Origin: a virus
Length of the DNA stretch: 29,970 nucleotides
IMG/VR virus record: IMGVR_UViG_3300009181_000245
Span: 1-29,970 of that record
Reading direction: 5' to 3' (one strand)
Positions 4,511 to 24,974 of the stretch are shown piece after piece. The notes beneath the pieces are model-generated. The model had not been told where the DNA came from. It was given only the letters and a program-made list of their open reading frames with translations, and ran no database searches. The position numbers and the translations under genes were made by a program. The stretch's first letter is position 1, and each line of letters begins with the position of its first letter.

Positions 4511-4560
4511 GAATATTAGGGGTTACATAACCGCTTCGTTGCTCTATATAGAGGTTGAGA

Positions 4561-7500
4561 ATGGCAAATAAGTTTCAATTCAAGCGCACGACAATTTCTG
4601 GTCGTACAGCTAATACTACTGACGTAGCAAATTCCGGCTTTATTGATAACGGCGAATTTGCAGTTAACTTAACTGATCGTAAAGTCTTCTCTTCAGATGC
4701 TGCCAATGCCATCTTCGAAGTCGGTTCAAATCTCTCTTCTCTTGCTGTTACTACGGTTGTCGCCAACGGATCTTCTGGATTAGGCGGACAAGTTCTTTCA
4801 TCGAATGGAACCGCAGTTTATTGGGGTCCAGGTGGTACAGCAAATGCTGCTACCATGAATACCTATACGTTTACTGTGGCATCGAATACTACGGTGTTTA
4901 CAGGTTTAGACGATACCTCAAATACATTCATATATACTGCCGGACTTGAAAGCGTCTTTATTAATGGCTCTCGTCAGATTGCGGGTGTTGACTATAACAC
5001 AACAAATACTACCGTTCTCACACTTACAGCGAATGCGATTGCCGGTGATATTGTTCAAGTTACAACTTTAAATGGTGCTTCACTTACTCTCGGTTCTCAA
5101 GGTGCCCAAGGAGCAACCGGCGCTCAAGGTGCTACTGGTGCTCAAGGCGCACAGGGTGCCCAAGGTGCACAAGGAGCCACTGGTGCAGCTTCATCGGTTG
5201 CCGGTCCACAAGGTTCTACTGGAGCTCAAGGTGCTCAAGGTGCTACTGGCGCTCAAGGTGCTCAAGGTGCTACTGGCGCTCAAGGTACAACTGGTTCTAC
5301 AGGTGCTCAAGGTGCTACTGGAGCCCAAGGTGCTCAAGGTGCTACTGGCGCTCAAGGTGCTCAAGGTGCGGCTGGAGCTCAAGGTACAACTGGTTCTACA
5401 GGTGCTCAAGGTGCTCAAGGTGACACTGGCGCTCAAGGTGCTCAAGGATTACAAGGTGCACAAGGAGTTACCGGAGCACAAGGTGCTCAAGGTGCTACTG
5501 GCGCTCAAGGTGCTCAAGGTGCAGCTGCTGTTGTAGGTGGATCAAATACACAGATACAATTTAATGATTCTACCAGTTCCAATGGATCTGCAGGATTCAC
5601 GTTTAACAAAATAAGTAATAATGTTACAATCGCTAATAATATATCTGCTACCTCTGGTACATTTGCTGGAGCAGTCTCTGGTATCACTACACTCGATGCT
5701 GGCAATACTACGATCACGGGTGTTACTAGATTATCCTCTCCTACCATTAGTGCTCCATACTGGGGAGCAAATGGTATCAATTTAATTCAAAGTGCTGCAA
5801 CCTTCATAGATAACACTACACCAGGCAATAACGGATCGGTGTATATAAATCGTTTTGCATCTCAAACTTATAACGCAACGGTATCGACGGCGCAAATTCT
5901 ATCAATCTATGGCACTTATTTTGAAGCGCCAATTTTGGGTGCTAATGTAATTACTGGTGGTGGTGGTGCACTTTATGGTAAGTTTGCATTGGGTGCGGAG
6001 GGAATCTACTCCAATGGCTCTATCTCCGTTCAAGGAGTATTAACCGCAAACAGTCCTGGTAATAATGACATTGTGGCTGTTGCATCAACAAATATTAGTG
6101 GCGCAAATGTGAATATTGGTGGCGTAACAACTATTACTGGCGCACCAACTACTGGGCTTGTGGTAACTGTCGGCACTGCCAGCTTTACAGTAACCCCAAG
6201 TACCACTGGCACAATCACGATGGGGAACGCCACTGGTAGTGGTGATATTACTGTTGGACGGTCCACTAGAAATCAGACAGTCCAAATTGCTTCTGCCGCT
6301 ACTACTTCCGGCAACACCAAGACTATCAATCTTGGCACAGGTGGTGCTGCAGGCTCAACAACCAATGTCAATATCGGTTCGACACTTTCTAATACATTTG
6401 TTACGATCAATGCTAATACCGTAACTTATACTGGAGCAGCATCTGGCATCACAACACTTGCTGCGGGTAATACTACGATCACCGGTGATATCACTGTTTC
6501 TGGTAATCTAACCATCAACGGAACAACAACGAATATAAATTCTACAAATCTTGTTGTAGAAGATAAAAACATTATACTTGCCGATGTTACTACTCCAACC
6601 GAGGTGACTGCGGATGGCGGTGGTATTACTCTGAAAGGTGCCACCGATAAGACATTTAACTGGGTAAATGCTACTACGAGTTGGACCTCTTCAGAAAATT
6701 TAGATCTTGCATCGGGCAAAACTTATAGGATCAATGGCACTACTATTGCTAACTCCACAGCTTTAGGTACTGGAATTCTTGCATCTTCTTTAACCTCGGT
6801 AGGCACTTTAAGTTCTCTTACACTCGGCGGTGCTGTAACAGGTGTCACAACACTTGCCGCTGGCAATACTACGATTACTGGCTTTGCGAACGTAACATCA
6901 ACGCTTGCCGTCGCTGGAATTACTACATTCTCAGGCAACGTAATTCTTGGCTCGTCCGGTCTTTCTGCAAATGGAGGATTTGGTTCTGCAGGACACGTTC
7001 TTTCATCGAATGGTACCGCTGCATATTGGACGACTGCTGCTGCCACGGGTGTTACTAGCGTTGCGACCGCAAATGGACTTTCAGGTGGACCGATTACATC
7101 TACCGGCACAATTGGTGTTACAACAGGTCCGACGCTGACAGTCAATACGACTGGCATTCATGTCAACTCAGCATTATCAATCTCCGATCTTACACTCTCT
7201 GGCAATCTCACAGTATCTGGCACAAGAACATATGTGAACACAACGACACTTGATGTCGGTGATAATATCGTCACTCTGAATGCAGATCTTGGAGCTAATC
7301 CTCCTACTGAGAATGCCGGAATTGAAGTTATGCGCGGCACTTCCGCCAACGTTCAATTCCTTTGGGATGAAACAAACGATCGATGGTCAACTAATGACCA
7401 ACCACTTGCAACCTTATCATTGACAGTTGGTAACTCTTCTATTAGCTCTACTGTCAACGGTAGTAACTTTAGCGGTACTGCAAACAACTCGACGAATTTT

Positions 7501-10389: not shown

Positions 10390-11222
10390 TGACTGGTATC
10401 TTTGCTGGATTGTTGGGTGTAGGCGTTAGCGTAGTAACTGGCCAAGATGCCTACACCACTGCGGGTACATATACATGGGTTAAGCCAGCCGGGGTTACTA
10501 GCGTATCCATTGTTGCCGTTGGTTCCGGTAGACCCGGAGCAGCTAGTTTTTACGTTGGTGAGATCGGCGTGTGCTGGTGTGGCTTTGGCGGCGGTGGTGG
10601 CGGTGGAGGTGCGCTGGCCTACCTCAATAACTATGATGTTTCAGCCCGATCCTCGTTGCAGATTGTAATCACCTCTGGTGGTAGCAGTACTGTTAACGAC
10701 TGCGCGGCCGCGCATATATTTACGGCAGGGCTAGGCGGAGTGGGCAGCGGTAGTACTGGTGGCGATGGGGGCACTGCCACAGGTACATTTACGGCATCTT
10801 ATGCTGGTGGTAAGGGTGGTATTGGCGGATATACTGCGTGTGGCTATAATAATAACAACGGCGGTGGTGGTGGTGCTGGCGGCTATGCTGGCGTTGGTGG
10901 CTTTGGTGGCGGTCGAACCCCCCCACCAAACGGCTGTACTAATACCCCCAGTGTTGCTGGCTCTGGCGGCGGCGGCGGCGGCGGGGGCAATCCCTATAAC
11001 GTAGGTGGTGGCGGCGTAGGCATACTTGGGCAAGGAACAAACGGCGCTGCTAACGGCGGTGGTGGGTCTGGCGGCGCTTCTGCAAATGTCAGAAATGGGG
11101 GAGCATACGGCGGTGGCGGCGCTGGTTGCAATGCAGTCTATGTTGCCTCAGGAGGCGCAGTTCGCATTATCTACCCTGGTACAACACGTTCCTTCCCATC
11201 GACTAATACAGGGGACCTATAA
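10389..11222 (+). CDS. Glycine-rich adhesin-like tail-fibre tip protein
   Basis: 277 aa from ATG 10389, coupled to the giant fibre by TAATG. After a short N-terminus (TYTWVKPAGVTSVSIVAVGSG, a 'trumpet' strand pattern common in phage Gly-rich proteins) it has dense poly-glycine runs (GGGGGGGG near residue 65, GGGGGAGGYAGVGG near 165, GGGGGGGG near 200). It ends in GGAVRIIYPGTTRSFPSTNTGDL, the usual terminus of this family in T4-like phages. Several cysteines, including VCWCGF, punctuate the glycine runs. Poly-glycine lattices are known from T2/S16 gp38 adhesins that cap the long fibre; here the same role is inferred from composition and position after the fibre. G+C is clearly above the neighbours. 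Confidence 0.75.
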   Translation: MTGIFAGLLGVGVSVVTGQDAYTTAGTYTWVKPAGVTSVSIVAVGSGRPGAASFYVGEIGVCWCGFGGGGGGGGALAYLNNYDVSARSSLQIVITSGGSSTVNDCAAAHIFTAGLGGVGSGSTGGDGGTATGTFTASYAGGKGGIGGYTACGYNNNNGGGGGAGGYAGVGGFGGGRTPPPNGCTNTPSVAGSGGGGGGGGNPYNVGGGGVGILGQGTNGAANGGGGSGGASANVRNGGAYGGGGAGCNAVYVASGGAVRIIYPGTTRSFPSTNTGDL

Positions 11223-12712: not shown

Positions 12713-15430
12713 ATGGCTACACCAAATAACTTTCGCGTTAAATCAGGCCTGAATGTAGGCACTACAATAGCAGGCGGTAATACAACTATTACTGGCTTTG
12801 CGAATGTCAGCACCAGCGTCAACTCAGCTTCACTCACTGTAGGTTCTAGCTTCATTGCCAACACGAGCAAAGTGGCTATCGGTACGGCAGTCGGACTTGA
12901 AGCGAACGGTGGTATCGGTACTGCCGGTCAAGTATTACACTCAAATGGTACTTCGATATACTGGGCAGTTGATGACAATGCCGGAGGAACAGTCACATCT
13001 GTCGCAACTGCCAACGGTCTTTCTGGTGGTCCAATTACATCAACTGGTACACTCGGTGTAACGACCGGTTCGACACTTACGGTGAATACTGCCGGCATTC
13101 ATGTGAACTCAGCCTTATCAATCACATCTCTTACGTTAGCAGGTGCAGCTTCTGGTGTTACGACACTTGCTGCCGGTAATACAACAATTACAGGTTTTGC
13201 AAACGTAACAGGTAACGTACAAATAAGCGCGATCAATGCAACCTCATTTGGCGCTACGCTTACTTCAAATTCAACGACCGCTATTTTAACTCTTGGCAAC
13301 TCTTCTGTTACCGCAACAATGAATAGTTCAACCTTTAGTGGCACTGCAAACAACTCTACGAATCTTGACGGGTCTTCATTAGCTACAGTACAAGGTCAAA
13401 TTACTGGTAACGCTACTACTGCATATACAAACTCAGTATCCTACACTGACACAAAGATCGGTACAGCGAATACTGCGATGGTTGCAAATGCCGGTGCAGC
13501 ATATACCAATGCGACTATTTTTGCTGCCAATGCTTCGAATGCAAACAATGGCACATTAGCTTTTGCTCGATTACCTTCATTGTTTGTTGGAACGACTACG
13601 ATTCAGTCAACAAGTGCTGCACAAGCCGTAACAGGTATTACGACGCTTGCCGCAGGTAACACGACGATTACTGGTGATATTACCGTTTCTGGTAACCTTA
13701 CTATCAATGGTACTACAACCAATATAAATTCTACAAATCTTGTTGTAGAAGATAAAAACATTGTGCTTGCTGACGTAACTACTCCGACCGATGTGACTGC
13801 CGACGGTGGTGGTATTACTCTGAAAGGTGCCACCGATAAGACATTTAACTGGGTTGATGCAACTGACGGCTGGACTTCTTCTGAACATATCGATCTTGCG
13901 GCCGGTAAAGTCTATAAGATCGGTACTACTACTATTGCTAACTCTACAGCTTTAGGTACTGGAATTCTTGCATCGTCTCTTACCTCTGTAGGCACTTTAA
14001 GTTCTCTTACGCTCGGTGGCGCAGTATCAGGCGTCACAACACTCGCTGCCGGTAATACTACTATTACTGGCTTTGCGAATGCTTCAGTTTCGGTCAACTC
14101 AGCATTGTTAACTGTGGGTACAGCCTTTGTTGCTAATACGATTGGAGCTTTTCACACTGGTACTGTTAACGCTGCATCATTTACAACCACTGGTTTAACA
14201 ATTAATACTACTGCTATTGTTCCTACATCAAACTCATCAGGGCAGACATTAGGTAATACCACTTCTAGGTTTGTTTTGTCCGCCAACTCAATTGACACAA
14301 CAGGCGCAATTAACATCGCCGCCGGGCAAGTGTTAAAATTCAATAATGATGTTGGTATTTCTCGCTCGCAAGCTGCAGTATTGTCTATCGGCAACGGAAC
14401 TCAAAATGATTCTACTGGAACAATAAGTCTTACTGGTGGTTTATTTCAAGGCGCAGTCAATGCAGCTTCACATACTGTCGGTTCTAGCTTCATTGCCAAC
14501 TCAACGGGCATTACATCAACTGGCTTTGCAAACGTATCGACTACATTACAAGTGGGAACGAATACAGCCACCTTTGGTACCGCTGTTTATATTATAGCAA
14601 GTGGTAACACCGGTGTTGGTACAAGTTCTCCGGCATCACTGTTTCATGTCAAACGCGGCAGCAATGCTACCGAAAACTACCCTACTAATACTTGGGCGGC
14701 GCGCATTATCAATGCCACCGATGCCAATACTGAAAATGGCCTTGTTGTCGGCAATCGCTGGGCTGCGGTTGAGTCAACAATTTTTGAAGCCGGGTCGATT
14801 TATGGCGGAGGCTCTGCTTGGGCATCTTATTATAAAGTCACAGGCATTGGAACGCACACTTGGGGCACGGGCTCAACTGGCACTGAAGCTATGCGTATCG
14901 ATACTAACGGTAACACTGGTATTGGTAACACCGCACCGGCCCATAAATTATCGATAGGTGGCACGCTCGCAGCCGGTAACACTACGATCACGGGTTTTGC
15001 TAACGTATCGACCACTTTACAAGTAGGAGGCATTTCTACTCTTGCCGCAAACTTAGTAATGGCCAACAATTTTATTACTCGCCCAGTGTTAGCAGGTTAC
15101 TCTGAACACGAAGTGTCAAACACGGCAGTTACTGGTACATTTACACTAGACTTTTCGACTGCAAACTTCTTCGATCTAATACTTACTGGAAACACGACAA
15201 TCTCACCATCTGGAATTCCAGCGAATACAAGAATGGTTTCTGCTACACTTGCAGTCAAACAAGATGCGACCGGAGGAAGAACCATTACATGGCCGACAGG
15301 TACTAAATACGCGGGTGCTGTCTCGCCTCCTGCGACAACGACTGCAAATGCTGTCGATATCTGGTCGATTATGACGTACGATGCGGGCAATACTTACATT
15401 GTTTCATTGTCAGTAAAGAATGCGAGCTAA
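12713..15430 (+). CDS. Modular tail fibre without collagen repeats
   Basis: A 905-aa protein. The N-terminus ([32 protein letters not shown]) is a minimal attachment element. The shaft contains many [14 protein letters not shown] and [16 protein letters not shown] units also present in the 4561 fibre. Residues ~320-450 duplicate a stretch of that fibre ([22 protein letters not shown] onward). Around residues 630-745 is a VGTSSPASLFHVKRG...GNTGIGNTAPAHKLSIGG pair, the 'G.G...P..kL.v' signature common in phage fibres. The C-terminus (DFSTANFFDLILTGNTTISP, VKQDATGGRTITWPTGTKYAG, VDIWSIMTYDAGNTYIVSLSVK) matches a frequent fibre tip domain. It is probably a second receptor-binding fibre under its own late promoter. 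Confidence 0.85.
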   Translation: MATPNNFRVKSGLNVGTTIAGGNTTITGFANVSTSVNSASLTVGSSFIANTSKVAIGTAVGLEANGGIGTAGQVLHSNGTSIYWAVDDNAGGTVTSVATANGLSGGPITSTGTLGVTTGSTLTVNTAGIHVNSALSITSLTLAGAASGVTTLAAGNTTITGFANVTGNVQISAINATSFGATLTSNSTTAILTLGNSSVTATMNSSTFSGTANNSTNLDGSSLATVQGQITGNATTAYTNSVSYTDTKIGTANTAMVANAGAAYTNATIFAANASNANNGTLAFARLPSLFVGTTTIQSTSAAQAVTGITTLAAGNTTITGDITVSGNLTINGTTTNINSTNLVVEDKNIVLADVTTPTDVTADGGGITLKGATDKTFNWVDATDGWTSSEHIDLAAGKVYKIGTTTIANSTALGTGILASSLTSVGTLSSLTLGGAVSGVTTLAAGNTTITGFANASVSVNSALLTVGTAFVANTIGAFHTGTVNAASFTTTGLTINTTAIVPTSNSSGQTLGNTTSRFVLSANSIDTTGAINIAAGQVLKFNNDVGISRSQAAVLSIGNGTQNDSTGTISLTGGLFQGAVNAASHTVGSSFIANSTGITSTGFANVSTTLQVGTNTATFGTAVYIIASGNTGVGTSSPASLFHVKRGSNATENYPTNTWAARIINATDANTENGLVVGNRWAAVESTIFEAGSIYGGGSAWASYYKVTGIGTHTWGTGSTGTEAMRIDTNGNTGIGNTAPAHKLSIGGTLAAGNTTITGFANVSTTLQVGGISTLAANLVMANNFITRPVLAGYSEHEVSNTAVTGTFTLDFSTANFFDLILTGNTTISPSGIPANTRMVSATLAVKQDATGGRTITWPTGTKYAGAVSPPATTTANAVDIWSIMTYDAGNTYIVSLSVKNAS
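13678..14010 (+). repeat. Inter-gene fibre module repeat, copy B
   Basis: Counterpart of the 6486-6830 segment, in the 905-aa fibre. Protein differences cluster at ...TWSSEN/HIDLAAGKVYKIG, while the [15 protein letters not shown] core is unchanged. Confidence 0.8.
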
Positions 15431-15433
15431 GAT

Positions 15434-16756
15434 ATGGGTATTGGTGGAGGTTCTAAATTTACACTCGAAAAAACTTGGCGCGCAAGTGGTGTCGGCACGA
15501 CTACGTTTAATGCACCAGGCAATATCGCAATCCCTTACGGTAGAAATGTAATCAACGTTGCTGGTGCAGGTGGCACCGGAACAGCAGCCATTTCTGGTAA
15601 CTTAAACTATAATCCACTTGTACCAGGAACATTAAACTATAATCCACTTGTTCCAGGAACATTAAACTACAATCCACTCGTTCCTGGTACTCTTAACTAT
15701 AACCCACTCGTTCCTGGTAACTTGAACTATAATCCACTTGTTCCTGGAACATTAAACTATAATCCTCTAGTTCCAGGCAATCTGAACTATAATCCGCTTG
15801 TTCCCGGAAACCTAAACTATAATCCACTTGTTCCTGGAACTGCCAACTATAATGCTGTCGTTCCGGGCACTTCTAACTATAATGCTGTCGTTCCGGGCAC
15901 TTCTAACTATAATGCTGTCGTTCCAGGCAATTCTAACTTTAACCCAATTGTTCCAGGAACTGCGAGCACATATAATCCAGAGAGCGCAGGAACAGCGAGC
16001 TCATATAATGCTCCAAGCCCAGGAACAATTGCTGGATATACTCCCTATAAAGCCAAAGCGGGTACCGGAGGCAATCCGTTCTATAATGCTCCAACTGCTG
16101 GTAATCTGAATTATAACTCTCCTTCTCCAGGTACAGTTGCAAGTTATAATTCTCCTTCAGGCGGCACATTTGCTGGTACTAATCCATCAAGTGGAGGTAC
16201 ATTTGCTGGTACTAATCCATCAAGTGGAGGTACATTTGCTGGTACTAATCCATCAAGCGGCGGTACTTTATCTTCATACAATGCTCCAACTGGCCAAACA
16301 TCGACCGGAACATATAATGCTCCAACTGGAAAAACATCGACCGGAACATATAATGCTCCAACTGGTCAAACATCAACAGCAACATACAATGCTCCAACTG
16401 GCCAAACATCGACCGGAACATATAATGCTCCAACTGGAAAAACATCAACAGGCACTTATAATGCACCAACGGGTCAAACCTCAACAGGCACTTATAATGC
16501 ACCAACGGGTCAAACCTCGACCGGAACATATAACGCTCCGACTGGACAAACGTCGTCAACATATAATCCAAATACTCCGGCAGTTGCCGGTACCTCATCA
16601 TCAGCGCTCGGCGTGACAGCTCCCGGATCGGCGACCGGAGGAACTCCAGCAACACCGGTAGGTCAAACACTTGTTAGCTATTATACATATCCAGATAACG
16701 CAACATATCCTGTGACAGTGGCTCCTGGGGGTAATATAACTATAGTAGTATCGTAA
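15434..16756 (+). CDS. Proline/glycine repeat fibre protein, candidate hydroxylation substrate
   Basis: A 440-aa protein starting 3 bp after the 905-aa fibre. Residues 1-55 are a short N-terminal module (FTLEKTWRASGVGTTTFNAPGN...). Residues 56-175 are twelve decapeptides of the type NYNPLVPGTL (eight NYNPLVPG, three NYNAVVPG, one NFNPIVPG). Degenerate Tyr-Asn-Pro units follow, then three GGTFAGTNPSS units and eight YNAPTGQTSTGT-type units to about residue 375. A C-terminal strand (LVSYYTYPDNATYPVTVAPGGNITIVVS) may cap the fibre. Nearly every decapeptide contains X-Pro-Gly, the sequence context favoured by prolyl 4-hydroxylases, and a gene of that class starts 24 bp downstream. No catalytic motif is seen. 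Being a virion protein is inferred from context. Confidence 0.75.
   Translation: MGIGGGSKFTLEKTWRASGVGTTTFNAPGNIAIPYGRNVINVAGAGGTGTAAISGNLNYNPLVPGTLNYNPLVPGTLNYNPLVPGTLNYNPLVPGNLNYNPLVPGTLNYNPLVPGNLNYNPLVPGNLNYNPLVPGTANYNAVVPGTSNYNAVVPGTSNYNAVVPGNSNFNPIVPGTASTYNPESAGTASSYNAPSPGTIAGYTPYKAKAGTGGNPFYNAPTAGNLNYNSPSPGTVASYNSPSGGTFAGTNPSSGGTFAGTNPSSGGTFAGTNPSSGGTLSSYNAPTGQTSTGTYNAPTGKTSTGTYNAPTGQTSTATYNAPTGQTSTGTYNAPTGKTSTGTYNAPTGQTSTGTYNAPTGQTSTGTYNAPTGQTSSTYNPNTPAVAGTSSSALGVTAPGSATGGTPATPVGQTLVSYYTYPDNATYPVTVAPGGNITIVVS
15599..15958 (+). repeat. 30-bp tandem repeats coding NYNPLVPG decapeptides (12 units)
   Basis: Twelve in-frame 30-bp units with a fixed period. Units 1-8 encode (N/T)LNYNPLVPG, units 9-11 encode (T)(A/S)NYNAVVPG and unit 12 encodes NSNFNPIVPG. 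Third positions vary between neighbours, so selection on the peptide rather than very recent DNA expansion explains most of the array; the NAVVPG units are nearly identical in DNA and look younger. Confidence 0.9.
16160..16258 (+). repeat. 33-bp tandem repeats coding GGTFAGTNPSS (3 units)
   Basis: Three almost identical 33-bp units in frame, differing only at a few third positions (GGCGGC/GGAGGT and AGTGGA/AGCGGC at the edges), which indicates recent expansion. Confidence 0.85.
16274..16558 (+). repeat. 36-bp tandem repeats coding TYNAPTGQTSTG (8 units)
   Basis: Eight in-frame 36-bp units; positions vary between Gln and Lys in TG(Q/K)TS, and the last unit is shortened to QTSS. Each unit contains Ala-Pro-Thr-Gly and a Ser/Thr cluster, a plausible O-glycosylation target. 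Confidence 0.85.
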
Positions 16757-16780
16757 TTTTTATATAATGAGGAATATATA

Positions 16781-17371
16781 ATGACTTTTGACTTTCAAAA
16801 ATATAATGCGCCGTTGGAGTGTTTTGCTATATGGGAAGGTGGATTTACACCTGAAGAAGTAGACAAAATCCTTTATATGGAATCTCTCCAAAACTTTGGA
16901 AAAGGTACAGTAGGATCAGAGAATGCAGTTGCTAAAAAAGAAGTCAGAGACTCTGAAATAGCATGGATTCACCCCGATCAACATTCCCATTGGTTATTTG
17001 AACGACTTGCTGCAATCACATCAACCATAAATCATCAACAATTTATGTATGATATTAAAGGTGTTGAACTTCTTCAATACACAAAATACAATATTAACCA
17101 ACACTACACTTGGCACTGGGATGTTGAGTTTGGTTGGCAAAACTTTCAGCGTAAAATCTCTGCCACGATGATGCTCTCTGATCCTGATGAGTATGAAGGT
17201 GGTGAACTCGAGGTTTGCAATAATGGCAATTTTGAAGATACTAAAGTAGTGAAACCTAAAAAAGGTGATATTGTTTTCTTTGCATCTTGGATGCCGCATC
17301 GAGTAAAACCAGTTATTTCTGGTGAAAGAAAATCATTGGTAATGTGGGTAATGGGAAAAAGGCAATCGTAA
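16781..17371 (+). CDS. Prolyl 4-hydroxylase/PKHD-type 2OG-Fe(II) dioxygenase
   Basis: A 196-aa protein. It shows the full catalytic set of the P4H/PKHD superfamily: YTWHWDVEFG (Fe ligands H112 and D114), RKISATMMLSDPDEYEGGELEV (strand and Gly-Gly turn), and KKGDIVFFASWMPHRVKPVISGERKSLVMWV (third ligand H173, 2-oxoglutarate anchor R183). These enzymes hydroxylate prolyl residues in peptides or similar substrates using Fe(II), O2 and 2OG. The length is that of the bare catalytic domain. It follows the Pro-Gly repeat gene after 24 bp with a TGAGGA ribosome-binding site, and overlaps the next gene by one base. Acting on the neighbouring repeat protein is inference; relatives are widespread in marine T4-like phages. 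Confidence 0.88.
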   Translation: MTFDFQKYNAPLECFAIWEGGFTPEEVDKILYMESLQNFGKGTVGSENAVAKKEVRDSEIAWIHPDQHSHWLFERLAAITSTINHQQFMYDIKGVELLQYTKYNINQHYTWHWDVEFGWQNFQRKISATMMLSDPDEYEGGELEVCNNGNFEDTKVVKPKKGDIVFFASWMPHRVKPVISGERKSLVMWVMGKRQS

Positions 17372-18087
17372 TGTTTAACTTCTTTAAAAAACCGGTGATG
17401 GAATTCTATTGCCATCCAGAACAACATGGTGTTATTCCTGAACCAAAACCGGCTGCAAAGTATATAGCAGATTGGTTTAAAAAAATTCCTGTCGATCTTG
17501 ATGAAAGAGACACGTTTGGTGCTCGATCAATGTCTGCAAAGAAATGTATGCCAATGCTAGATGCAATGACATTAGGATACGTGATTCCTTTACAAGCAGA
17601 TCTACATCTCATTTCTAATCACGATCGCACTCATATTGAGGTGACAAATCCTCCTGGTACAAAGATTTGTGAGTTTCATAATATCAAGCAAGTTGGTGAA
17701 AAGACTGCGCCCGGATTTCCGGCAGCTCCAATAAAGTTCATCAACTATTGGGTGATTAAAACAAAGCCCGGTTATTCTACGATGATCATGCCATTAGTTA
17801 ATAATTTTGATAATGACTTTACGTGTTTGTCAGGTCTTGTCGACACTGATAGATATCCTAAAGAAATCAATTTTCCTGCAATCTGGCACACTCCTAACTT
17901 TGATGATATTATTCCAGCAGGAACTCCACTTGTTGTAGTGTTTCCTATTAAAAGAAGCGATATTCCATCTAAACCAATCGTCAGAGAAATGACCACTAAA
18001 GAATTTAAACACATTGATAATATCAAAAAAGCACAAGACAGTCGTCGTCATGTCTATACACAAGAATTGAGGGAACCTAGAAAATGA
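17371..18087 (+). CDS. Unknown protein, paralogue of the next gene
   Basis: 238 aa from ATG 17371 (TAATG overlap with the hydroxylase); the upstream in-frame ATG at 17344 lies inside the hydroxylase. It begins MFNFFKKPVMEFYCHPEQHG and contains CMPMLDAMTLGYVIPLQADLHL, APIKFINYWVIKTKPGYSTMIMP and GTPLVVVFPIKR. The same order of elements is found in the 18084-18803 product, so the two are paralogues from an old duplication. It vaguely resembles the DUF6065 type of protein; I do not know its activity. There are no metal-binding or nucleotide motifs. The C-terminus is basic and helical. Its place between hydroxylase and glycosyltransferase genes suggests a role in the same modification process, but this is unproven. 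Confidence 0.75.
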   Translation: MFNFFKKPVMEFYCHPEQHGVIPEPKPAAKYIADWFKKIPVDLDERDTFGARSMSAKKCMPMLDAMTLGYVIPLQADLHLISNHDRTHIEVTNPPGTKICEFHNIKQVGEKTAPGFPAAPIKFINYWVIKTKPGYSTMIMPLVNNFDNDFTCLSGLVDTDRYPKEINFPAIWHTPNFDDIIPAGTPLVVVFPIKRSDIPSKPIVREMTTKEFKHIDNIKKAQDSRRHVYTQELREPRK

Positions 18088-18803
18088 TTTTCAATTTTCT
18101 TAAAAAGAAAAAAGATCTTGAATTTGTAGATACCAGTAGAACTGCTTATCAGACATATCCTGTTGTAAGAGCGGCTGATATCAAACCGCGCACATTTGAA
18201 TATCAAAAAAACAAATACAAAAAGCATATGTTGCCTCACTGCCCCGGTATGATTCAATATGCTGAGATGGGATATATTATTCCTGCATGGATTGATATTC
18301 ACATTAGAGCGAATAAAGCAGGTGTTGCTCACTATATTGGATCTGACGAACGCGGAACCCGCGGATATTTGCCAGGTAGAGTAATGGGTGCAGACGTAAT
18401 CGATGGGATCTTTGAACCAGAAGATGGTGTTCCGTTGACTCCTCTTAATTTTGGAGCACCTTGGGCTATTTTTGGTCGTGGTAATATTACAGCCTTGTTA
18501 TTACCTGCGATTTATCATTCAGACTTCTTAGACGATTTGATGGTATTACCTGGATCTGTTGATTATGAAAAGTTTCATACTGCCAATTTTATCTGTGCTC
18601 CAAAGCGTGAGTGCGAGGTACATATCAAAGCTGGAGATCCTTTGTTGCATGTGATCCCGTTCTGGAATAAAGAATTTAATGCTGGATTTGGGCCTGGATC
18701 ACAAGATCAAGTAGACAAATGGAATAATGAAATTCCCGGTGATGATAAACAATATTATCGTAGGTTTCAAATGTTAAAGAAAGTGTTTAGGTTGTCAAAA
18801 TGA
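18084..18803 (+). CDS. Unknown protein, paralogue of the previous gene
   Basis: A 239-aa protein overlapping the upstream gene by 4 bases (ATGA). It begins MIFNFLKKKKDLEF, then CPGMIQYAEMGYIIPAWIDIHI, LNFGAPWAIFGRGNITALLLPAIY, LPGSVDYEKFHTANFICAP and GDPLLHVIPFWNKEF, matching the order of elements in the 17371 product (GLVDTDRYPKEINFPA, GTPLVVVFPI). It differs mainly in the N-terminal 40 residues and a loop (DERGTRGYLPGRV). Both copies appear intact, which argues for distinct roles or a heteromer. Function is unknown. It overlaps the glycosyltransferase start by 4 bases. Confidence 0.75.
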   Translation: MIFNFLKKKKDLEFVDTSRTAYQTYPVVRAADIKPRTFEYQKNKYKKHMLPHCPGMIQYAEMGYIIPAWIDIHIRANKAGVAHYIGSDERGTRGYLPGRVMGADVIDGIFEPEDGVPLTPLNFGAPWAIFGRGNITALLLPAIYHSDFLDDLMVLPGSVDYEKFHTANFICAPKRECEVHIKAGDPLLHVIPFWNKEFNAGFGPGSQDQVDKWNNEIPGDDKQYYRRFQMLKKVFRLSK

Positions 18804-19870
18804 AAATATTTGTATCAATCTGTTCTTATAGAGATCCACTTTTACATTATACTCTTGAGAGTTTAATTGAAAACAAATCAAATAGACACGAAGCAACTTA
18901 CTCGATCTTAGAACAGATCGTATACAAAGACTCGCTTGAGAAGTTATATCCAGAACTTGTGGCAAGACCGGATGTTGTTTATAAAAGAGTCGAACCACAA
19001 TATTCAGACGGGGTAGGTTGGGCGAGAAAGGTTAACTCACTGAATGTAAGAGATGAGGATTTCTTTTATCAAATCGACAGTCATATGGTGTTCGATGAAA
19101 ACTGGGATCGATATCTTGTAGAAGACTATAAGCGTGGTGTCAAGAAATCTGGTAGTAAGAAAGTTATTATTGACGGTGGAACTAAAACTTATACGTTAAC
19201 TGAAAAGTTTGAACCGTATAAACATATAGAAGCTTACGGAATTACCACACATGCAAAATATTTTATGTGGGACAGAAATTCTATATTAGCAGTACATGGA
19301 CATCATGTTCCTCCTACACCAGATGTGATGCCTACAGCACATCTTTTTGCCGGCAATCTTTTTACTCATGTCGAATGGCTTCAAAATGTAGGAATCAATC
19401 ATCTTTCGTTTTTTGATGCTGAAGAACAGCTTCTTACTATGACATCATTTGAAGCCGGTTACTATATGTACGCGCCGACTGAAGTTAAAGTATATCATTT
19501 CGCCGGATCCGGAGAGTATACTACTAAACAGTGGTATAAACCTATTATTAGTATGGATAAATACTCAGAATGCGTAAAAATATCTGTTAAACAGTGGACA
19601 GATTATCTTGAATATGTTCAAGAATCCGTTCTCATAGATTACTACAAATATTCTGGCGTAGATTACATTAATCAAAAGATCGAAGATCGCGGTCGAGACT
19701 ATCCTGCATTAGTCAGTAAAATGAATTATCCTTTGATACCAGGCGAAACTCACGTCGTTATTAATAAAGAAATTGAAGAAGACACTAAATCTAATATAAT
19801 TGTTAATGAAGAAATTCAAGATGATAAAGGTGAAATAACAAATGACAGTGCCGAATCTCAAACGGAATAG
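18800..19870 (+). CDS. GT60-like (Skp1 GlcNAc-transferase type) glycosyltransferase
   Basis: A 356-aa GT-A fold enzyme. It opens with MKIFVSICSYRDPLLHYTLESLIENK, has GVGWARKVNSLNVRDEDFFYQIDSHMVFDENWD with the metal-binding D93-S-H95 triad, and later GNLFTHVEWLQNVG...SFFDAEEQLLTMTSFEAGYYMYAPTEVKVYHF (about 184-235). These three blocks are the pattern of the PF11397 / CAZy GT60 family, whose characterised members transfer GlcNAc to polypeptide Thr/Ser or, in Dictyostelium Skp1, to hydroxyproline. The donor sugar here is not proven. The last ~55 residues are acidic and look like a flexible tail. It overlaps both neighbours (4 and 29 bases), so it is in an operon with them. Pairing with the hydroxylase at 16781 is the key context. 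Confidence 0.82.
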   Translation: MKIFVSICSYRDPLLHYTLESLIENKSNRHEATYSILEQIVYKDSLEKLYPELVARPDVVYKRVEPQYSDGVGWARKVNSLNVRDEDFFYQIDSHMVFDENWDRYLVEDYKRGVKKSGSKKVIIDGGTKTYTLTEKFEPYKHIEAYGITTHAKYFMWDRNSILAVHGHHVPPTPDVMPTAHLFAGNLFTHVEWLQNVGINHLSFFDAEEQLLTMTSFEAGYYMYAPTEVKVYHFAGSGEYTTKQWYKPIISMDKYSECVKISVKQWTDYLEYVQESVLIDYYKYSGVDYINQKIEDRGRDYPALVSKMNYPLIPGETHVVINKEIEEDTKSNIIVNEEIQDDKGEITNDSAESQTE

Positions 19871-20303
19871 AGAATGTGGAGATTGTAAAGAATGCTGTAC
19901 GGGCACTTTATATGCTGATATTTACGGAAAAATTATGGATAAGGGAAGACCGTGTCACTACTTAGGTGGAGAGGGTTGCACTATTTATGAAAAAAGGCCA
20001 GGTGTTTGTAAAGCATATGCATGTGAATGGCTAAGAGATGATTCGACACTTATTCCAGAATGGATGAGACCGGATTTATCAAAAGTTATTATTACGCAAA
20101 AAGGCTGGGGTGATAATCTTCAACACAATTATTGGAATATCGCAGAAAGCCATCAGAAGATTGATTCTGTAATCTTAAATTGGGTCTATATGTATACGTC
20201 TTCTCATAATATATGTGCTAACATTGAAGTTGACGGAAGATGGTATCAAATGGGCCCTCCCGAATTTGTAGAATATATGCAGAGAAGTGTTTCGGCGACT
20301 TAA
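19842..20303 (+). CDS. CxxCxxCC-type (YkgJ-like) metal-binding protein
   Basis: A 153-aa protein starting 29 bases inside the glycosyltransferase gene; a later start would remove the cysteine motif, and GGTGA precedes this ATG. Cysteines at C12-x2-C15-x2-C18-C19, C38, C46, C56 and C61 (ECGDCKECC...PCHYLGGEGCTIYEKRPGVCKAYACEW) fit the zinc/iron-chelating YkgJ domain, PF03692. Members are proposed to bind Fe or Zn; their biochemical role is poorly known. In this setting it could supply or protect iron for the several Fe(II) enzymes nearby, or be a flavin/Fe-S-like partner; both are speculation. The C-terminal half has no recognised motif. Confidence 0.8.
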   Translation: MTVPNLKRNRECGDCKECCTGTLYADIYGKIMDKGRPCHYLGGEGCTIYEKRPGVCKAYACEWLRDDSTLIPEWMRPDLSKVIITQKGWGDNLQHNYWNIAESHQKIDSVILNWVYMYTSSHNICANIEVDGRWYQMGPPEFVEYMQRSVSAT

Positions 20304-20307
20304 ATCT

Positions 20308-20901
20308 ATGTTATACGAAGAAATAAAACTTAAAAATCCTGGGGTATTAAAAACAAAACTACCTAATGATATATTCAGGCAGATAAAAGCTGATGCACTT
20401 GCAGATGCTGAAAAAAAGATCCCATATAATGAACATTTAGTAGGTCAAATTGCTGGTGAATATCAAATCAAAGTAAATCCATATTTTGAAAAAATTATTA
20501 ATAATATGTGGATTGAATATAGAGAAAGATTTGACTATCATCTTTCAAACCAATATTATATTTCTGATACAGCATGGATAAATGTCCAGAAAAAACATGA
20601 ATTCAATCCCGTGCATCATCATGAAGGTGCAGCATCTTGGGTTATATGGTTACAGATCCCGTATGATTTAGAGGAAGAATTGAACACTTTTAAAAATGCA
20701 AAAAGTCGTGATACTTCTTTATTTTATTTTTATTATAATTCGTTTATAGGAACACAAGAAAATTCCCCGCTGTATATTGATAAACAATGGGAAGGAACTA
20801 TGATTATGTTTCCGGCGATGCTGAAGCATAGCGTATATCCATTTTATACTACAGACTCTCCAAGAATTTCAATATCTGGGAACATTGAAGTCCATGCATG
20901 A
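20308..20901 (+). CDS. 2OG-Fe(II) oxygenase-like protein (TIGR02466-like)
   Basis: 197 aa from ATG 20308, 4 bases after the previous stop; an in-frame GTG at 20287 is possible but would overlap. Core elements: AWINVQKKHEFNPVHHHEGAASWVIWLQIPYD (HxH at H103/H105), GTMIMFPAMLKHSVYPFY (H174) and SPRISISGNIEV (R186). This is the 'N..H.H.....SwV.wl..P' layout of phage 2OG oxygenases, related in type to the 11742 gene but divergent in sequence. An N-terminal ~90-residue helical region precedes the core. The substrate is unknown. It overlaps the next gene by 8 bases. Confidence 0.75.
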   Translation: MLYEEIKLKNPGVLKTKLPNDIFRQIKADALADAEKKIPYNEHLVGQIAGEYQIKVNPYFEKIINNMWIEYRERFDYHLSNQYYISDTAWINVQKKHEFNPVHHHEGAASWVIWLQIPYDLEEELNTFKNAKSRDTSLFYFYYNSFIGTQENSPLYIDKQWEGTMIMFPAMLKHSVYPFYTTDSPRISISGNIEVHA

Positions 20902-21724
20902 TATTCAATTTTGGAAAGAATTATGTCCAAATCTTACGATTGCAGAAATAGATCGTTGGGCAACACCGTCAGAAATTGCTATAGAAGATGTCAAAGATAA
21001 AATAGTTAACGACGGATATTTCCATATACCATTTGACTCATGGAATCTGCCTTTCGATGAAATGACTCGATGCATTGAAAAGTTAAAAGATCTTGATATG
21101 CAACCAGTATGGTGTTTTATATACGACGAGTTTTGGTTATTGACGGTCAAGATCGATGCACACATCAAATCTATTCTTGGTGAAAATTATTATCGGCTTC
21201 CTGAAGTGTGGGCATGGCATATCGATCCATCGAAAGAAGAAAGAGGCTGGAAGATACATCGAGAAGGCGGATATTATAGTACATTTGATGACGGTCTTCC
21301 AAAAACTTTAACTATCTGGATTCCTTTAACAGATGCAACTTCAGAGAATGGTTGCATGTGTGTCGTGCCAATAGCAAACGATCCTAACTTTTATAATACA
21401 GACGAATCGTATTATGCAAATTGGCAAGAAGATTTTTATGATAATAGTAAAAAAATACTTGAAGCCAAATCAGGAGATGTGCTTGGATGGCATCCGCAGA
21501 TATTACATTGGGGGAAAAAATCTACTAATAAAAATGCAAATCCGCGAATATCAATATCCATGGAGTTTGTTTCGAATCGTATATTAGAACTAAATGATAC
21601 TGCGTGTTTTTATGACAAAGAAGAACATCCATGGTTAGATCCATTTTATATTCCAGATCTGACTAAAAAGACAGAACTCATAAATAAGCTAGTATCACGA
21701 TATCAACATATGTGGGAAAAGTAA
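20894..21724 (+). CDS. Phytanoyl-CoA dioxygenase (PhyH)-like oxygenase
   Basis: 276 aa from ATG 20894 (a TTG at 20885 is an alternative start). A PhyH-type layout is visible: DGYFHIPF near residue 41, VWAWHIDPSKEERGWKIHREGGYYS (ligands H122 and E124, an HxE variant), TIWIPLTDATSENGCMCVVP, GDVLGWHPQILHWGKKST (H205) and NPRISISMEFV (R218). PhyH enzymes hydroxylate lipid, amino-acid or sugar-linked small molecules and some peptides; the substrate here is unknown. It starts inside the preceding oxygenase gene and its stop abuts the methyltransferase start, so it is in the operon. Confidence 0.8.
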   Translation: MHDIQFWKELCPNLTIAEIDRWATPSEIAIEDVKDKIVNDGYFHIPFDSWNLPFDEMTRCIEKLKDLDMQPVWCFIYDEFWLLTVKIDAHIKSILGENYYRLPEVWAWHIDPSKEERGWKIHREGGYYSTFDDGLPKTLTIWIPLTDATSENGCMCVVPIANDPNFYNTDESYYANWQEDFYDNSKKILEAKSGDVLGWHPQILHWGKKSTNKNANPRISISMEFVSNRILELNDTACFYDKEEHPWLDPFYIPDLTKKTELINKLVSRYQHMWEK

Positions 21725-22333
21725 ATGCCTGAACTAACCAAATACGAAAAATTAGTAAGACTTCAGCCGGTCGATTTTGTGCCTGAGATACAATTGTATC
21801 TATGTGATACAGCACATCACATCGTATATCCCGATAGATATCCTTGTTGGGCATACGCATGGGTAGGCGGAAAGGCACTTGCCAGATATATTCTTGATAA
21901 TCCGCAATTAGTTCAAGGCAAAACAATCATTGACATGGCAGCTGGATCTGGAATTGCAGCCATCGCAGCTAAAATGGCTGGCGCTGCAAGAGTAATAGCA
22001 GTCGATGACTATACACCGAGTATAGAAATCATGCAACTCAATGCTGAAGCGAATGGCGTTGAAATAGAATTGGTTCAACAAAGCGTTTTTGACTATCAAC
22101 CAAGCCACGCCTATGACTTATTCATAATGGGCGATCCATTCTATAACGATGATCTCTTCTCGTATGTTGAAAATAATTTCAAACCAGTACTTGTCGGATG
22201 CCCGGTAAGATCTCATACTTTGTATTATAATTTTTATGTAAAAAATCCAATACACACATATACTATTGAATCACCTCCAGGCTACGACGACTATCTCGAA
22301 TTTGACACACACATTTGGTGGTTAAGTGCCTAA
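21725..22333 (+). CDS. METTL20/ETFB-KMT-like class I methyltransferase
   Basis: A 202-aa Rossmann-fold SAM-dependent methyltransferase. Upstream of the fold is CWAYAWVGGKALARYILDNPQLVQGK, then motif I IIDMAAGSGIAAIAAK (68-83), the acidic residue of motif II in VIAVDDY (D94/D95), LNAEANGV, and GDPFYND (136-142) in the motif IV region. This combination (W-Y-A-W-G-G..LA, G-x-G, GD-FY) matches the METTL20 / Methyltr_16 group of protein lysine and small-molecule N-methyltransferases. A protein substrate is therefore plausible but not shown. It is encoded with no gap after the PhyH-like gene and overlaps the sulfotransferase by 8 bases. Confidence 0.8.
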   Translation: MPELTKYEKLVRLQPVDFVPEIQLYLCDTAHHIVYPDRYPCWAYAWVGGKALARYILDNPQLVQGKTIIDMAAGSGIAAIAAKMAGAARVIAVDDYTPSIEIMQLNAEANGVEIELVQQSVFDYQPSHAYDLFIMGDPFYNDDLFSYVENNFKPVLVGCPVRSHTLYYNFYVKNPIHTYTIESPPGYDDYLEFDTHIWWLSA

Positions 22334-23084
22334 ATTTACGTGTTTATTAACACCAGGAAGATCGGGCTCTACGTTTTTATACACTGCATTTAATCAAATT
22401 CCAAATACTATTGCACATGAATCATACTATGTGTGTACTGATAATATCGAGCAGTGTTTTTCTTCTATTTACGGAAAATCGTTGGCAGAAAAAAACAGAT
22501 TCATAAAGTCTAAGATCGAATATATCGAAAACTTAGACTGTGAATACTATGTTGATACTGTATCTCTTATATGCCAAGATAATAACTTAGAGTTGTTTAT
22601 CGATAACGGTTATAAACCAAATGTCATTACGCTTCGCCGTGATCCAAGAGATGTTGCCTTAAGCTGGTATAGTTTTGGTTGGGATCCGACTAAGTCGCCT
22701 TTAACATCTGTCAATCCAAATGACAAAGATGCCATCAAAATCACATTACAGGATCCACATGATTATCAATATTGTTTATGGTATTGCTTTGAGATTGAAA
22801 GACTGTGTAGACAATATAAAACAAAACTTGAATCTTGGGGCGTCAAACATTATGAAACATCCTTGTCTCATATAATAGACAAAGACAAGTTTAATTTGAT
22901 GTTAGATTTTTTTGAAATGCCTAACATATCAGAGATATGTCAAGGTAAAATAAATGAACTGAATGAATTTAAGGTCAGATCATTAGAAAATCATCTAATT
23001 CCTGAGTTGCAACAGCAGTTTCTAGAAAACATTAGAGACAATAATGACATAGAGTTTTTTGATATGGATCAGTGGAACTATTAG
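22326..23084 (+). CDS. Sulfotransferase-family protein
   Basis: A 252-aa protein starting at GTG 22326, overlapping the methyltransferase stop by 8 bases. The N-terminus FTCLLTPGRSGSTFLYTAFNQIP carries the 5'-phosphosulfate loop (TPGRSGST, 9-16), and PNVITLRRDPRDVALSWYSFGW carries the 3'-phosphate-binding Arg and Ser (R104/R105, S113). Both are the defining PAPS-binding elements of sulfotransferases. The acceptor (glycan, tyrosine or small molecule) cannot be told. The C-terminus is acidic and helical. In a cassette with two glycosyltransferases it may sulfate a sugar. The gene converges tail-to-tail with the minus-strand operon, overlapping its last gene by 4 bases with no terminator between. 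Confidence 0.8.
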   Translation: MPKFTCLLTPGRSGSTFLYTAFNQIPNTIAHESYYVCTDNIEQCFSSIYGKSLAEKNRFIKSKIEYIENLDCEYYVDTVSLICQDNNLELFIDNGYKPNVITLRRDPRDVALSWYSFGWDPTKSPLTSVNPNDKDAIKITLQDPHDYQYCLWYCFEIERLCRQYKTKLESWGVKHYETSLSHIIDKDKFNLMLDFFEMPNISEICQGKINELNEFKVRSLENHLIPELQQQFLENIRDNNDIEFFDMDQWNY

Positions 23085-23665
23085 TCTCTATAAACAGGAA
23101 GTGGAAAACCATATTGTGCTACATTTCCTGGTGAAACATAATGTAAAAAGGCTTGTGTGATAGATTTTTGTTCTACCTTTGGTCGATAATGCCATCTTCC
23201 GTCAAATTCGGTTGTGCCATAAAACATAATAGCATCTCCTTCTTCCATAAAGACTTCTACAGGATTTGATCCGTGTTCGTCATCACAGAAACATAAAGAC
23301 GTTGGCTGATCGCCGTCTTTGTCAATTAGTATAGTAGCTGAGAATTCACAGACAGAACGATCTCGATGGATCTTGAGTTCAGAATCGGTATAATATTGCC
23401 TAAAAAATACATAAGAAGGAATCAATTCAGTATTAAAGATGTCTTGCACTTTATTCTTATATGCGAGCAGCATACTATCAGCAAAGATAGTAGGTTGATA
23501 GTGATCGACATTGCCAATGAGATAAGGATTTGCTTCTACAGTCTTAATATTCGAAGCCTGTGAAACATCCATAAAAGACTTACAAATCTGAATTACTTCT
23601 GCAGATAAAAAGTTCTTGATGAGAACATATCCATGTTTTTTAAGATGTTTTCTAGCGTTTTTCAT
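23081..23665 (-). CDS. 2OG-Fe(II) oxygenase (P4Hc-like)
   Basis: 194 aa from the ATG at 23665, which overlaps the upstream stop as TAATG; a start six codons earlier is possible. HGYVLIKNFLSAEVI opens like other 2OG oxygenases; SELKIHRDRSVCEFSATILID gives H100 and D102, and EEGDAIMFYGTTEFDGRWHYRP gives H159. The C-terminal strand KSITQAFLHYVSPG lacks the usual Arg that binds 2-oxoglutarate; a Lys may replace it, or 2OG binding may be altered. The order matches small phage and bacterial P4H-like dioxygenases. Substrate unknown. It is the distal gene of a three-gene minus-strand operon. Confidence 0.78.
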   Translation of the reverse strand: MKNARKHLKKHGYVLIKNFLSAEVIQICKSFMDVSQASNIKTVEANPYLIGNVDHYQPTIFADSMLLAYKNKVQDIFNTELIPSYVFFRQYYTDSELKIHRDRSVCEFSATILIDKDGDQPTSLCFCDDEHGSNPVEVFMEEGDAIMFYGTTEFDGRWHYRPKVEQKSITQAFLHYVSPGNVAQYGFPLPVYRD

Positions 23666-24426
23666 TATATGCCTTTCATCCACTTTGTTCCATGCTTCGA
23701 GCTGTACTTTGTTTCAGGATCGTATGCTGCAAAATCTTCGTAGCGAGGATCTCCTGGCTCAGCTCGCTTGCCGATGCTATACTCGCCGATATGATTGACG
23801 ATGTTATTTCCTTCTTCGGTCTTGAGCTTACATGTTTGCATGCCAAGTTGTTGCAACGATTTCGCGACGACATACTCACTTAAGTTCTTCTCGCCTACTG
23901 ATTCGGTATGAGGAAGATCTACTATGGCACGCGGAAAAACACTTGCCAAACTCCAAAAATATGCTTCAGAAAGTTCTCCTCGATATTTTCCGAGTGTAAT
24001 GTCTGTTTCATAAGCCTGAGTTTCCTCTTCAAAATCATACCATTTTTGTCTTGTCAAACATACTTGAGAAACGTTACGATAATCATGTAAGATCTGAGTC
24101 ATGTCGAGCATTCGAATCGGACAGTTGAACGTCACATCATCTTCTGATAGATACACGTAGTCATAATCTCGTTCTCTCAGCAGTTCGAAGGTTCGATTCC
24201 ATACGTATGGCAAACCCATATTCTGTTGATGTAAGAAGATCTCGGTAAAACCAAAACTTTTGGCTAACTCGAACATCGTACCATCGTGGCGACCTTTTGG
24301 CATATCATCGATAAAGATGCCTTCGACTTCACAACCTTCAAAGTCTAACATATCACGCTGAGATTTGAGTGTAGGAATTAAATACTCGAGTCGATTCGTC
24401 GACCATATTACTTTACAAACTTTCAT
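23665..24426 (-). CDS. GT2-like glycosyltransferase
   Basis: A 253-aa protein. It begins MKVCKVIWSTNRLEYLIPTLKSQ, a GT-A type opening, then EGIFIDDMPKGR (nucleotide-binding Asp pair near 40-41), QNMGLPYVWNRTFELL, and YDYVYLSEDDVTF with an EDD metal site at 95-97. This is the pattern of a small GT2-class nucleotide-sugar transferase. Acceptor and sugar are unknown. It overlaps the upstream DUF6445-like gene by 4 bases and the downstream oxygenase by 1, so an oxygenase-glycosyltransferase-oxygenase order is coupled in translation. Confidence 0.75.
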   Translation of the reverse strand: MKVCKVIWSTNRLEYLIPTLKSQRDMLDFEGCEVEGIFIDDMPKGRHDGTMFELAKSFGFTEIFLHQQNMGLPYVWNRTFELLRERDYDYVYLSEDDVTFNCPIRMLDMTQILHDYRNVSQVCLTRQKWYDFEEETQAYETDITLGKYRGELSEAYFWSLASVFPRAIVDLPHTESVGEKNLSEYVVAKSLQQLGMQTCKLKTEEGNNIVNHIGEYSIGKRAEPGDPRYEDFAAYDPETKYSSKHGTKWMKGI

Positions 24427-24974
24427 CTCACTTGCTCCGTGTCAAAAAAGAATGTCTGAAAAAGACGTCCATCATATAAATCTTTCCCAAAGTAATCTAA
24501 GCTAGCATGGAAAAGGTCACCGCTATAAAGAATCAATCGATTGTATTTGTTGCCTACAACATCGATTCGATCCCACTTGGTATAGTCATATGCTTCGTGC
24601 TCGTTTGTTGGAGCCCGATATTCGCCTGTTTCTTTGTGCCGATACATGGCAGTGCCAGCGGTATATGGAGCATCTGGTGACAAGTAGCATACACCAGCCC
24701 ACATGCTTGTATGATCGCAATGAATCCACGTTCGATCTAAAGCGGTAGCGTATTGAAAGGCACCAGTATAACCGGAATCTTCGTGCCAATTGGAAATCTT
24801 TCCGACTGGATTCATCCAATGCTGAATGCAATCTTTGACATCTTGTGTCAAGAATGAAGGTGTTCGTTTTCCTGGATAGTTACCTATGACGCCAAAGTCT
24901 TGAGTTAAAGCAAAGGCTCTGACCGCGTCTGGATTGATATAGAAGTTATCAATAATCATCAAGTCTAAATTCAT
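24423..24974 (-). CDS. DUF6445-like 2OG-fold protein
   Basis: A 183-aa protein. It starts MNLDLMIIDNFYINPDAVRAFAL, then TWIHCDHTSMWAGVCYLSPDAPYTAGTAMYRHKETG, and ends NRLILYSGDLFHASLDYFGKDLYDGRLFQTFFFD. I recognise this as the DUF6445 layout. H85xD87, H156 and R170 are spaced like the Fe(II) and 2OG ligands of the oxygenase superfamily, so enzymatic activity is likely. Its gene lies 31 bases after the minus-strand late box, so it should be the first gene of the minus-strand operon. Confidence 0.75.
   Translation of the reverse strand: MNLDLMIIDNFYINPDAVRAFALTQDFGVIGNYPGKRTPSFLTQDVKDCIQHWMNPVGKISNWHEDSGYTGAFQYATALDRTWIHCDHTSMWAGVCYLSPDAPYTAGTAMYRHKETGEYRAPTNEHEAYDYTKWDRIDVVGNKYNRLILYSGDLFHASLDYFGKDLYDGRLFQTFFFDTEQVR

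Follow-up and report, generated by a model that had tools for sequence, protein, structure and literature searches.

The DNA studied here, referred to as the window, is the whole 29,970-base virus record IMGVR_UViG_3300009181_000245, probably a genome fragment, from a phage whose terminase is closest to those of T4-like cyanobacterial phages (57% identity). Positions 15434-19870 of the window encode a capped repeat protein (REP), a 2-oxoglutarate (2OG)-Fe(II) oxygenase, two proteins of the DUF6065 type (DUFa and DUFb) and a glycosyltransferase of family GT60, downstream of a tail-fibre gene:

12713..15430, plus strand: tail-fibre subunit upstream of REP, with PHROG tail-fibre families at 771-901 and the same place in relatives
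15434..16756, plus strand: REP, 440 amino acids, consisting of an N-terminal cap (N-cap), decapeptides, a short central non-repeat insert, 12-mer TYNAPTGQTSTG repeats and a C-terminal cap (C-cap)
15602..15961, plus strand: twelve-copy decapeptide array with V-Pro-Gly (Tandem Repeats Finder)
16275..16555, plus strand: second REP repeat array, 36-bp unit, without X-Pro-Gly (Tandem Repeats Finder)
16781..17371, plus strand: 2OG-Fe(II) oxygenase, assigned to the prolyl 4-hydroxylase (P4H)/PKHD superfamily, with an intact HxD..H..R site (PF13640, phrog_61, nearest PDB entries PKHD-type)
17371..18087, plus strand: DUFa, a DUF6065/phrog_7084 protein with a predicted beta-clip (dUTPase-like) fold (family profiles, structure model)
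18084..18803, plus strand: DUFb, a second DUF6065-like protein (phrog_7084, E 8e-16)
18800..19870, plus strand: GT60-family glycosyltransferase with a conserved QIDSH..NWD motif (PF11397, E 1.2e-22)

A sequence-only reading of this DNA had singled out three elements, and all of them were recovered at the coordinates it gave: twelve VPG decapeptides, an oxygenase whose open reading frame begins 24 bp past the REP stop codon, and a GT60 gene two genes further on. The overlapping operon that it described is also present, since the open reading frames 16781-17371, 17371-18087, 18084-18803 and 18800-19870 overlap successively by 1 or 4 bases. Due to these overlaps the genes from 16781 to 19870 are likely co-translated.

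Relatives were collected with five queries, which yielded 12 and then 23 contigs for GT60, 69 loci for the oxygenase, 43 for the N-cap, 80 for DUFa and 18 for the C-cap. The DUFa set comprises the best 80 matches, beyond which about 100 more distant DUFa loci lie; it was picked regardless of other genes and consists of 80 viral contigs in 22 clusters at 85% identity. The oxygenase was found in 78 of 78 and a REP homologue with caps in 76 of 76 determinable contigs of this set, DUFb in all 80, and GT60 in 69 of the 77 that are determinable. The oxygenase-based search gave the same co-occurrence over 17 clusters (80% identity). The recurring gene order is fibre, REP, oxygenase, DUFa, DUFb and GT60, and in almost every lineage REP lies immediately 5' of the oxygenase; the remaining flanks vary by lineage. 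Relatives of the C-terminal part of the 12713..15430 product precede REP in most lineages having that flank. As an out-of-sample test, the 38-amino-acid C-cap query alone retrieved five contigs not found earlier, and both annotated ones (L233 and the 173-kb contig L237; L numbers designate loci) hold REP, oxygenase, DUFa, DUFb and GT60 in order. One tandem lineage (L016-L021, L024) carries two cassettes, REP-oxygenase-GT60 and REP-oxygenase-DUFa-DUFb. Co-occurrence in related phages had been named beforehand as a test that could refute the sequence-only reading, and the oxygenase, GT60 and the capped repeat protein were indeed found together.

Since the pairwise distances of the oxygenase, DUFa, DUFb and GT60 agree over 26 lineages (Mantel r 0.73-0.87, p 0.001), these four genes descend together. 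Shared phage ancestry contributes to this joint descent, and the three neck genes available for comparison are too few to separate its share. We rejected the idea that the co-occurrence merely results from the abundance of 2OG genes in phages, because 361 GenBank phage records contain related oxygenases and none of these gave a GT60 match; no GT60 match was obtained in 50,697 GenBank phage records, named phages included. It is very likely that the fibre, the oxygenase, the two beta-clip-like proteins and GT60 and/or a sulfotransferase constitute one conserved module, of which our literature searches found no report. A contig binned as Chitinophagaceae (L138, DOMR01000007.1) bears the whole module and is probably a phage contig, possibly a hint at the host. 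Two further loci (L093 and L094) show runs of many 2OG oxygenase-like genes behind a glycine-rich protein, with REP and GT60 missing.

Membership of the 18800-19870 product in GT60, likewise set as a refuting test, was borne out by profile. The product scored 81.3 bits against a PF11397 cut-off of 21, all 21 diverse homologues matched the same profile, and no rival glycosyltransferase family appeared at E<1. The alignment comprises a best stretch at 94-271 of the 352 profile positions plus an N-terminal part at 2-44, and extends to 351 in bacterial relatives. Q91, D93, S94, H95, W102 and D103 are invariant in 21 GT60 sequences, and QxDSH...WD is presumably the metal/donor motif. A PDB sequence search with GT60 returned chance matches only. 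In a Hyphomicrobiales metagenome-assembled genome (L140:1445-6766) a bacterial GT60 gene lies between two flagellin genes together with a methyltransferase and a GT2 gene, and no 2OG gene was present among its scanned neighbours; another bacterial GT60 (L139) adjoins an RTX/PT-repeat protein. These neighbourhoods fit protein-directed transfer, and judged from its relatives GT60 is well supported as a putative protein-directed transferase, its acceptor residue less so. The L140 region itself is likely a flagellin glycosylation island using GT60.

GT60 is missing from 8 determinable contigs of the DUFa set, 6 of which bear a PF03567 sulfotransferase-like gene adjoining the oxygenase (types L054, L129 and L213). 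Two lineages (L216/L220) have GT60 plus a sulfotransferase-like gene according to profile search. Both enzymes act on hydroxyls, which fits a hydroxyl-making oxygenase and equally a direct action on Ser, Thr or Tyr.

The oxygenase matched PF13640 at E 1e-19, with H112-x-D114...H173...R183 as its site, and the same profile was matched in 32 of 32 homologues. The sequence-only reading had called it a P4H/PKHD-type dioxygenase. The superfamily and the intact site stand, and by sequence the PKHD type appears nearer than collagen-type P4H: the closest PDB entries are the PKHD structure 3dkq (3e-10) and PiuC (2e-8), followed by the bacterial P4H 5c5t (7e-7) and PHD2 (1e-4). The PKHD equivalogs of NCBIfam (NF003972-5) reached at best 70.4 bits, below their cut-off of 143. 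All homologues examined retain the Fe ligands and the Arg, apart from the GT60-adjacent copy 1 of the tandem lineage. This degenerate copy was seen in L016-L018, L021 and L024 (e.g. L016:9426-9998), and each locus that has it also holds a second, intact oxygenase copy.

No Pfam or PHROG match was found for REP. Its N-cap (KTW..GTTTFN..GNI.IPYGRN...V.GRGG.G) and C-cap (YPDNATYPVTV..GG.I.V) persist across relatives while the repeats between them change completely. The window protein contains 12 NYNPLVPG-type decapeptides, encoded by a 30-bp unit in 12.0 copies at 15602-15961, and 7.8 copies of the 36-bp unit of the TYNAPTGQTSTG array. Repeat units were defined by cutting REPs at each [Tyr/Phe]-Asn ([YF]N). 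Pro occurs in every such unit of the window REP; only 57% of them contain Pro-Gly (PG), because X-Pro-Gly is missing from the second array. Compared with other proteins of the same loci, the REP repeats are rich in Asn (median 18.5% vs 5%), Tyr (11.5% vs 5%) and Pro (12% vs 4%), and among 53 REPs the 99th percentile of the background was exceeded by Asn in 44, by Tyr in 35 and by Pro in 30.

A stretch rich in residues that the repeats seldom contain elsewhere, in many cases including a CP...YSC pair, could be located in 28 of 39 clusters at a median relative position of 0.46 (interquartile 0.44-0.51), a figure that excludes clusters without the stretch and for which, in charged-repeat types, the method picks repeats. 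This central position would fit an out-and-back hairpin, in which both caps meet at the base and two repeat arms lead to a variable tip, but it is no more than suggestive. Since the AlphaFold model of REP is of low confidence (predicted local distance difference test score, pLDDT, 45), we draw no structural claim from it. In L018 an N-cap fibre (L018:5602-7875) ends in a Hint/intein-like domain (PF01079 and PF14890 weak; AXH PF08517 6e-11) and the gene after it (L018:7878-9398) bears the C-cap alone, possibly as a split or spliced fibre; their equivalents in L016 terminate in tracts of poly-Pro and poly-Gly.

Both genes between the oxygenase and GT60 are of the phrog_7084/DUF6065 type, and their products are about 21% identical to each other. 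For DUFa (pLDDT 80) the top PDB matches in Foldseek were all dUTPase or dCTP deaminase, the best with E 2e-4, a TM score by target of 0.65 and a large root-mean-square deviation, and a beta-clip fold is therefore predicted. No dUTPase Pfam match and no credible PDB sequence match was obtained for DUFa. On the basis of this fold prediction we rejected DUF6065 as a transferase. In Synechococcus phage S-CREM1 the depositors had labelled a distant DUFa homologue a triphosphate nucleotidohydrolase, and the homologues of one haloarchaeal virus and two cyanophages sit in other gene contexts. DUF6065 thus also exists outside the module, as in Halophage HF1 (L137, 48119-49003), where a lone homologue lies near ribonucleotide reductase, and about 50 haloarchaeal viruses are related. 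Another candidate fibre-modification region is found in the named phage S-CREM1 (L223, 53439-63882), with a collagen-like protein, a tryptophan halogenase, a DUF6065-like protein and seven 2OG oxygenases plus JmjC in a row. No paper on DUF6065 was found in the literature searched.

From the observed sequences, family assignments and conserved linkage we infer a substrate, a modified residue, an order of steps and a benefit. It is fairly probable that genes 15434-19870 act as one conserved unit in making a component of the host-recognition fibre and in modifying it chemically, and we hold with almost the same assurance that REP, the natural reading, is the target of the module. REP would be a capped repeat fibre or tip protein whose caps are conserved and whose repeats may change freely in sequence and number. 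The oxygenase may hydroxylate many side chains along its repeats, Pro being the first guess, and GT60 would then put a sugar, probably N-acetylglucosamine (GlcNAc), on the hydroxyl thus formed or on one already there. The sulfotransferase of some lineages may decorate the fibre instead or additionally, and the two beta-clip proteins probably assist the fibre or the enzymes as scaffold or chaperone. Such modification could benefit the phage through fibre stiffness, protease resistance or receptor binding. The fullest version of this proposal, a complete two-step hydroxyproline O-glycosylation of the phage's own fibre with exchangeable sulfation, acting on capped repeat fibres that change rapidly and form a hitherto undescribed family, is a tentative one that we consider rather doubtful.

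The sequence-only reading had proposed that the phage hydroxylates and then glycosylates its own fibre. Self-modification of the fibre is retained as the best explanation, while hydroxyproline-GlcNAc at X-Pro-Gly is only partly supported. The narrower relay, in which a prolyl 4-hydroxylase acts on X-Pro-Gly and GT60 adds GlcNAc to the hydroxyproline as for Skp1 of Dictyostelium and Toxoplasma, is possible but we would not expect it. The oxygenase of the P4H superfamily with HxD..H..R, the profile match to GT60 and the Pro in all repeat units of the window REP agree with it, and the Skp1 enzyme pair offers a precedent (PMC6939170).

A number of findings weigh against this relay or against the best explanation as a whole. 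PG occurs in 0-100% and Pro in 28-100% of the repeat units among REP relatives, and X-Pro-Gly, which the sequence-only reading took as the substrate feature, is thereby lost as such: PG is missing from the units of several relatives, and collagen-like X-Pro-Gly triplets as a conserved substrate were rejected. The lowest Pro share, 28%, belongs to L220 (e.g. NVASYNAQ), which yet retains the oxygenase, GT60 and the sulfotransferase. Asn is more constantly enriched in REPs than Pro. The closest solved oxygenases are PKHD-type, and in the GT60-adjacent copy 1 of the tandem lineage the distal His is replaced by Ser or Ala, although HxD and Arg are retained and the intact second copy exists. The iron ligands of human P4H are His412, Asp414 and His483, and tested Asp414 variants were without hydroxylase activity (PMC2767507); by comparison, copy 1 is probably inactive due to the loss of its iron-binding His. 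In two lineages (L204 and L215) the core is present, but GT60 and a sulfotransferase are both missing from its vicinity. The window phage has several further 2OG oxygenases and another sulfotransferase that could share the work. Finally, GT60 holds hydroxyproline-specific enzymes such as Skp1 Gnt1 (PMC6939170) and also mucin-type Ser/Thr enzymes (PMC8724618).

The mucin-type members of GT60 speak for a parallel action of both enzymes, with GT60 on repeat Ser/Thr in the style of mucins or flagellins and the oxygenase separately on Pro or Asn, stiffening the fibre. Ser/Thr is present in 59-100% of the units of GT60-bearing REPs, and the L140 GT60 sits between flagellin genes, its scanned neighbours including no 2OG gene. 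However, GT60 accompanies the oxygenase throughout the module set, and the oxygenase as the more constant partner is left unexplained, so that we regard parallel action as unlikely.

Less likely again is an oxygenase that acts on the Asn of [Tyr/Phe]-Asn, with GT60 or the sulfotransferase on the same or a neighbouring residue. Asn is the most consistently enriched residue, and [YF]N is the recurring repeat element even in the Pro-poor L220. However, this Asn may be structural, as in an Asn ladder or a turn. We know of no enzyme of the P4H/PKHD group that hydroxylates protein Asn, and this counts against the Asn target.

Slightly lower still we place a host target, with GT60 modifying a polysaccharide of the host surface so that superinfection is prevented, and with the 2OG enzyme working in metabolism. 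Glycosyltransferases of the pelagimyophage host-recognition cluster have been so read (PMC7029224), and cyanophage 2OG oxygenases were read as parts of nitrogen metabolism or DNA repair (PMC3037559), but this would not account for the genes lying strictly next to a single fibre family and descending jointly with it, and bacterial GT60s adjoin flagellin and RTX genes. We give the least probability to the oxygenase and the beta-clip proteins serving chiefly as chaperones of the fibre and catalysing little or nothing, since HxD..H..R is intact in all other copies examined, even though one copy per tandem lineage is kept beside GT60 without its distal His and DUFa has a dUTPase-like fold by prediction.

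Fibre self-modification, the reading we prefer, has its nearest parallel in the Skp1 pathway, where PhyA hydroxylates Pro and Gnt1 (GT60) then attaches GlcNAc (PMC6939170). Both systems link a P4H-superfamily oxygenase to a GT60, both enzymes presumably being soluble and cytosolic; the module differs by its repeat-fibre substrate, the two beta-clip proteins and the sulfotransferase of some lineages. Neither a Skp1 substrate nor a PgtA/AgtA-type extending transferase was found among the window genes scanned with Pfam. Bacterial glycosylation islands for flagellin or surface proteins share with the module a GT60 gene adjoining a filament gene (L140), whereas the phage has a fibre instead of flagellin and the scanned L140 neighbours are without 2OG oxygenase. 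By position only, REP resembles the T2/S16-type gp37-gp38 long tail fibre and adhesin, as a separate protein whose gene directly follows that of a fibre subunit, with conserved ends and a variable middle; it has Pro/Asn/Tyr repeats rather than polyglycine helices. The PKHD-type hydroxylases PiuC/YbiX are among the nearest solved structures to the oxygenase, but their gene context differs and the oxygenase stays below the equivalog cut-off. Chloroviruses and mimivirus also encode enzymes that modify their own structural proteins; self-modification is shared with these eukaryotic viruses, while the enzyme sets are unrelated.

Elsewhere in the window, positions 19842-24974 are rich in possible protein modifiers: a CxxCxxCC protein, 2OG-Oxy_5, PhyH, a lysine-methyltransferase-like gene (21725), a sulfotransferase (22326) and, on the reverse strand, 2OG-like and other genes (23081-24974). 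Collagen-like Gly-X-Y stretches (GAQ, GPQ) with Pro at the X position occur in other fibre genes (1-762 and 4555-10389), and a glycine-rich protein at 10359-11222, which is without Pfam match, looks by eye like the T2/S16-type polyglycine adhesins.

As a rule, the 2OG oxygenases and glycosyltransferases of phages are accounted for by host metabolism, DNA or lipopolysaccharide (PMC3037559, PMC7029224), and bacteria and viruses were stated to lack the prolyl hydroxylases that their collagen-like proteins need (PMC3368898). The fibre family described here is always accompanied by an oxygenase of its own and, with few exceptions, by GT60 or a sulfotransferase, which makes post-translational modification of tail fibres a question that can be tested. 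The module would be the first pairing of GT60 with a 2OG oxygenase outside protists found in our search, and may supply small soluble enzymes for decorating repeat proteins. In many uncultured T4-like viruses of aquatic bacteria a gene for such a repeat-built fibre lies next to one for a hydroxylase and usually one for a sugar-adding enzyme, and chemical decoration of the host-binding fibre by the phage itself is probable.

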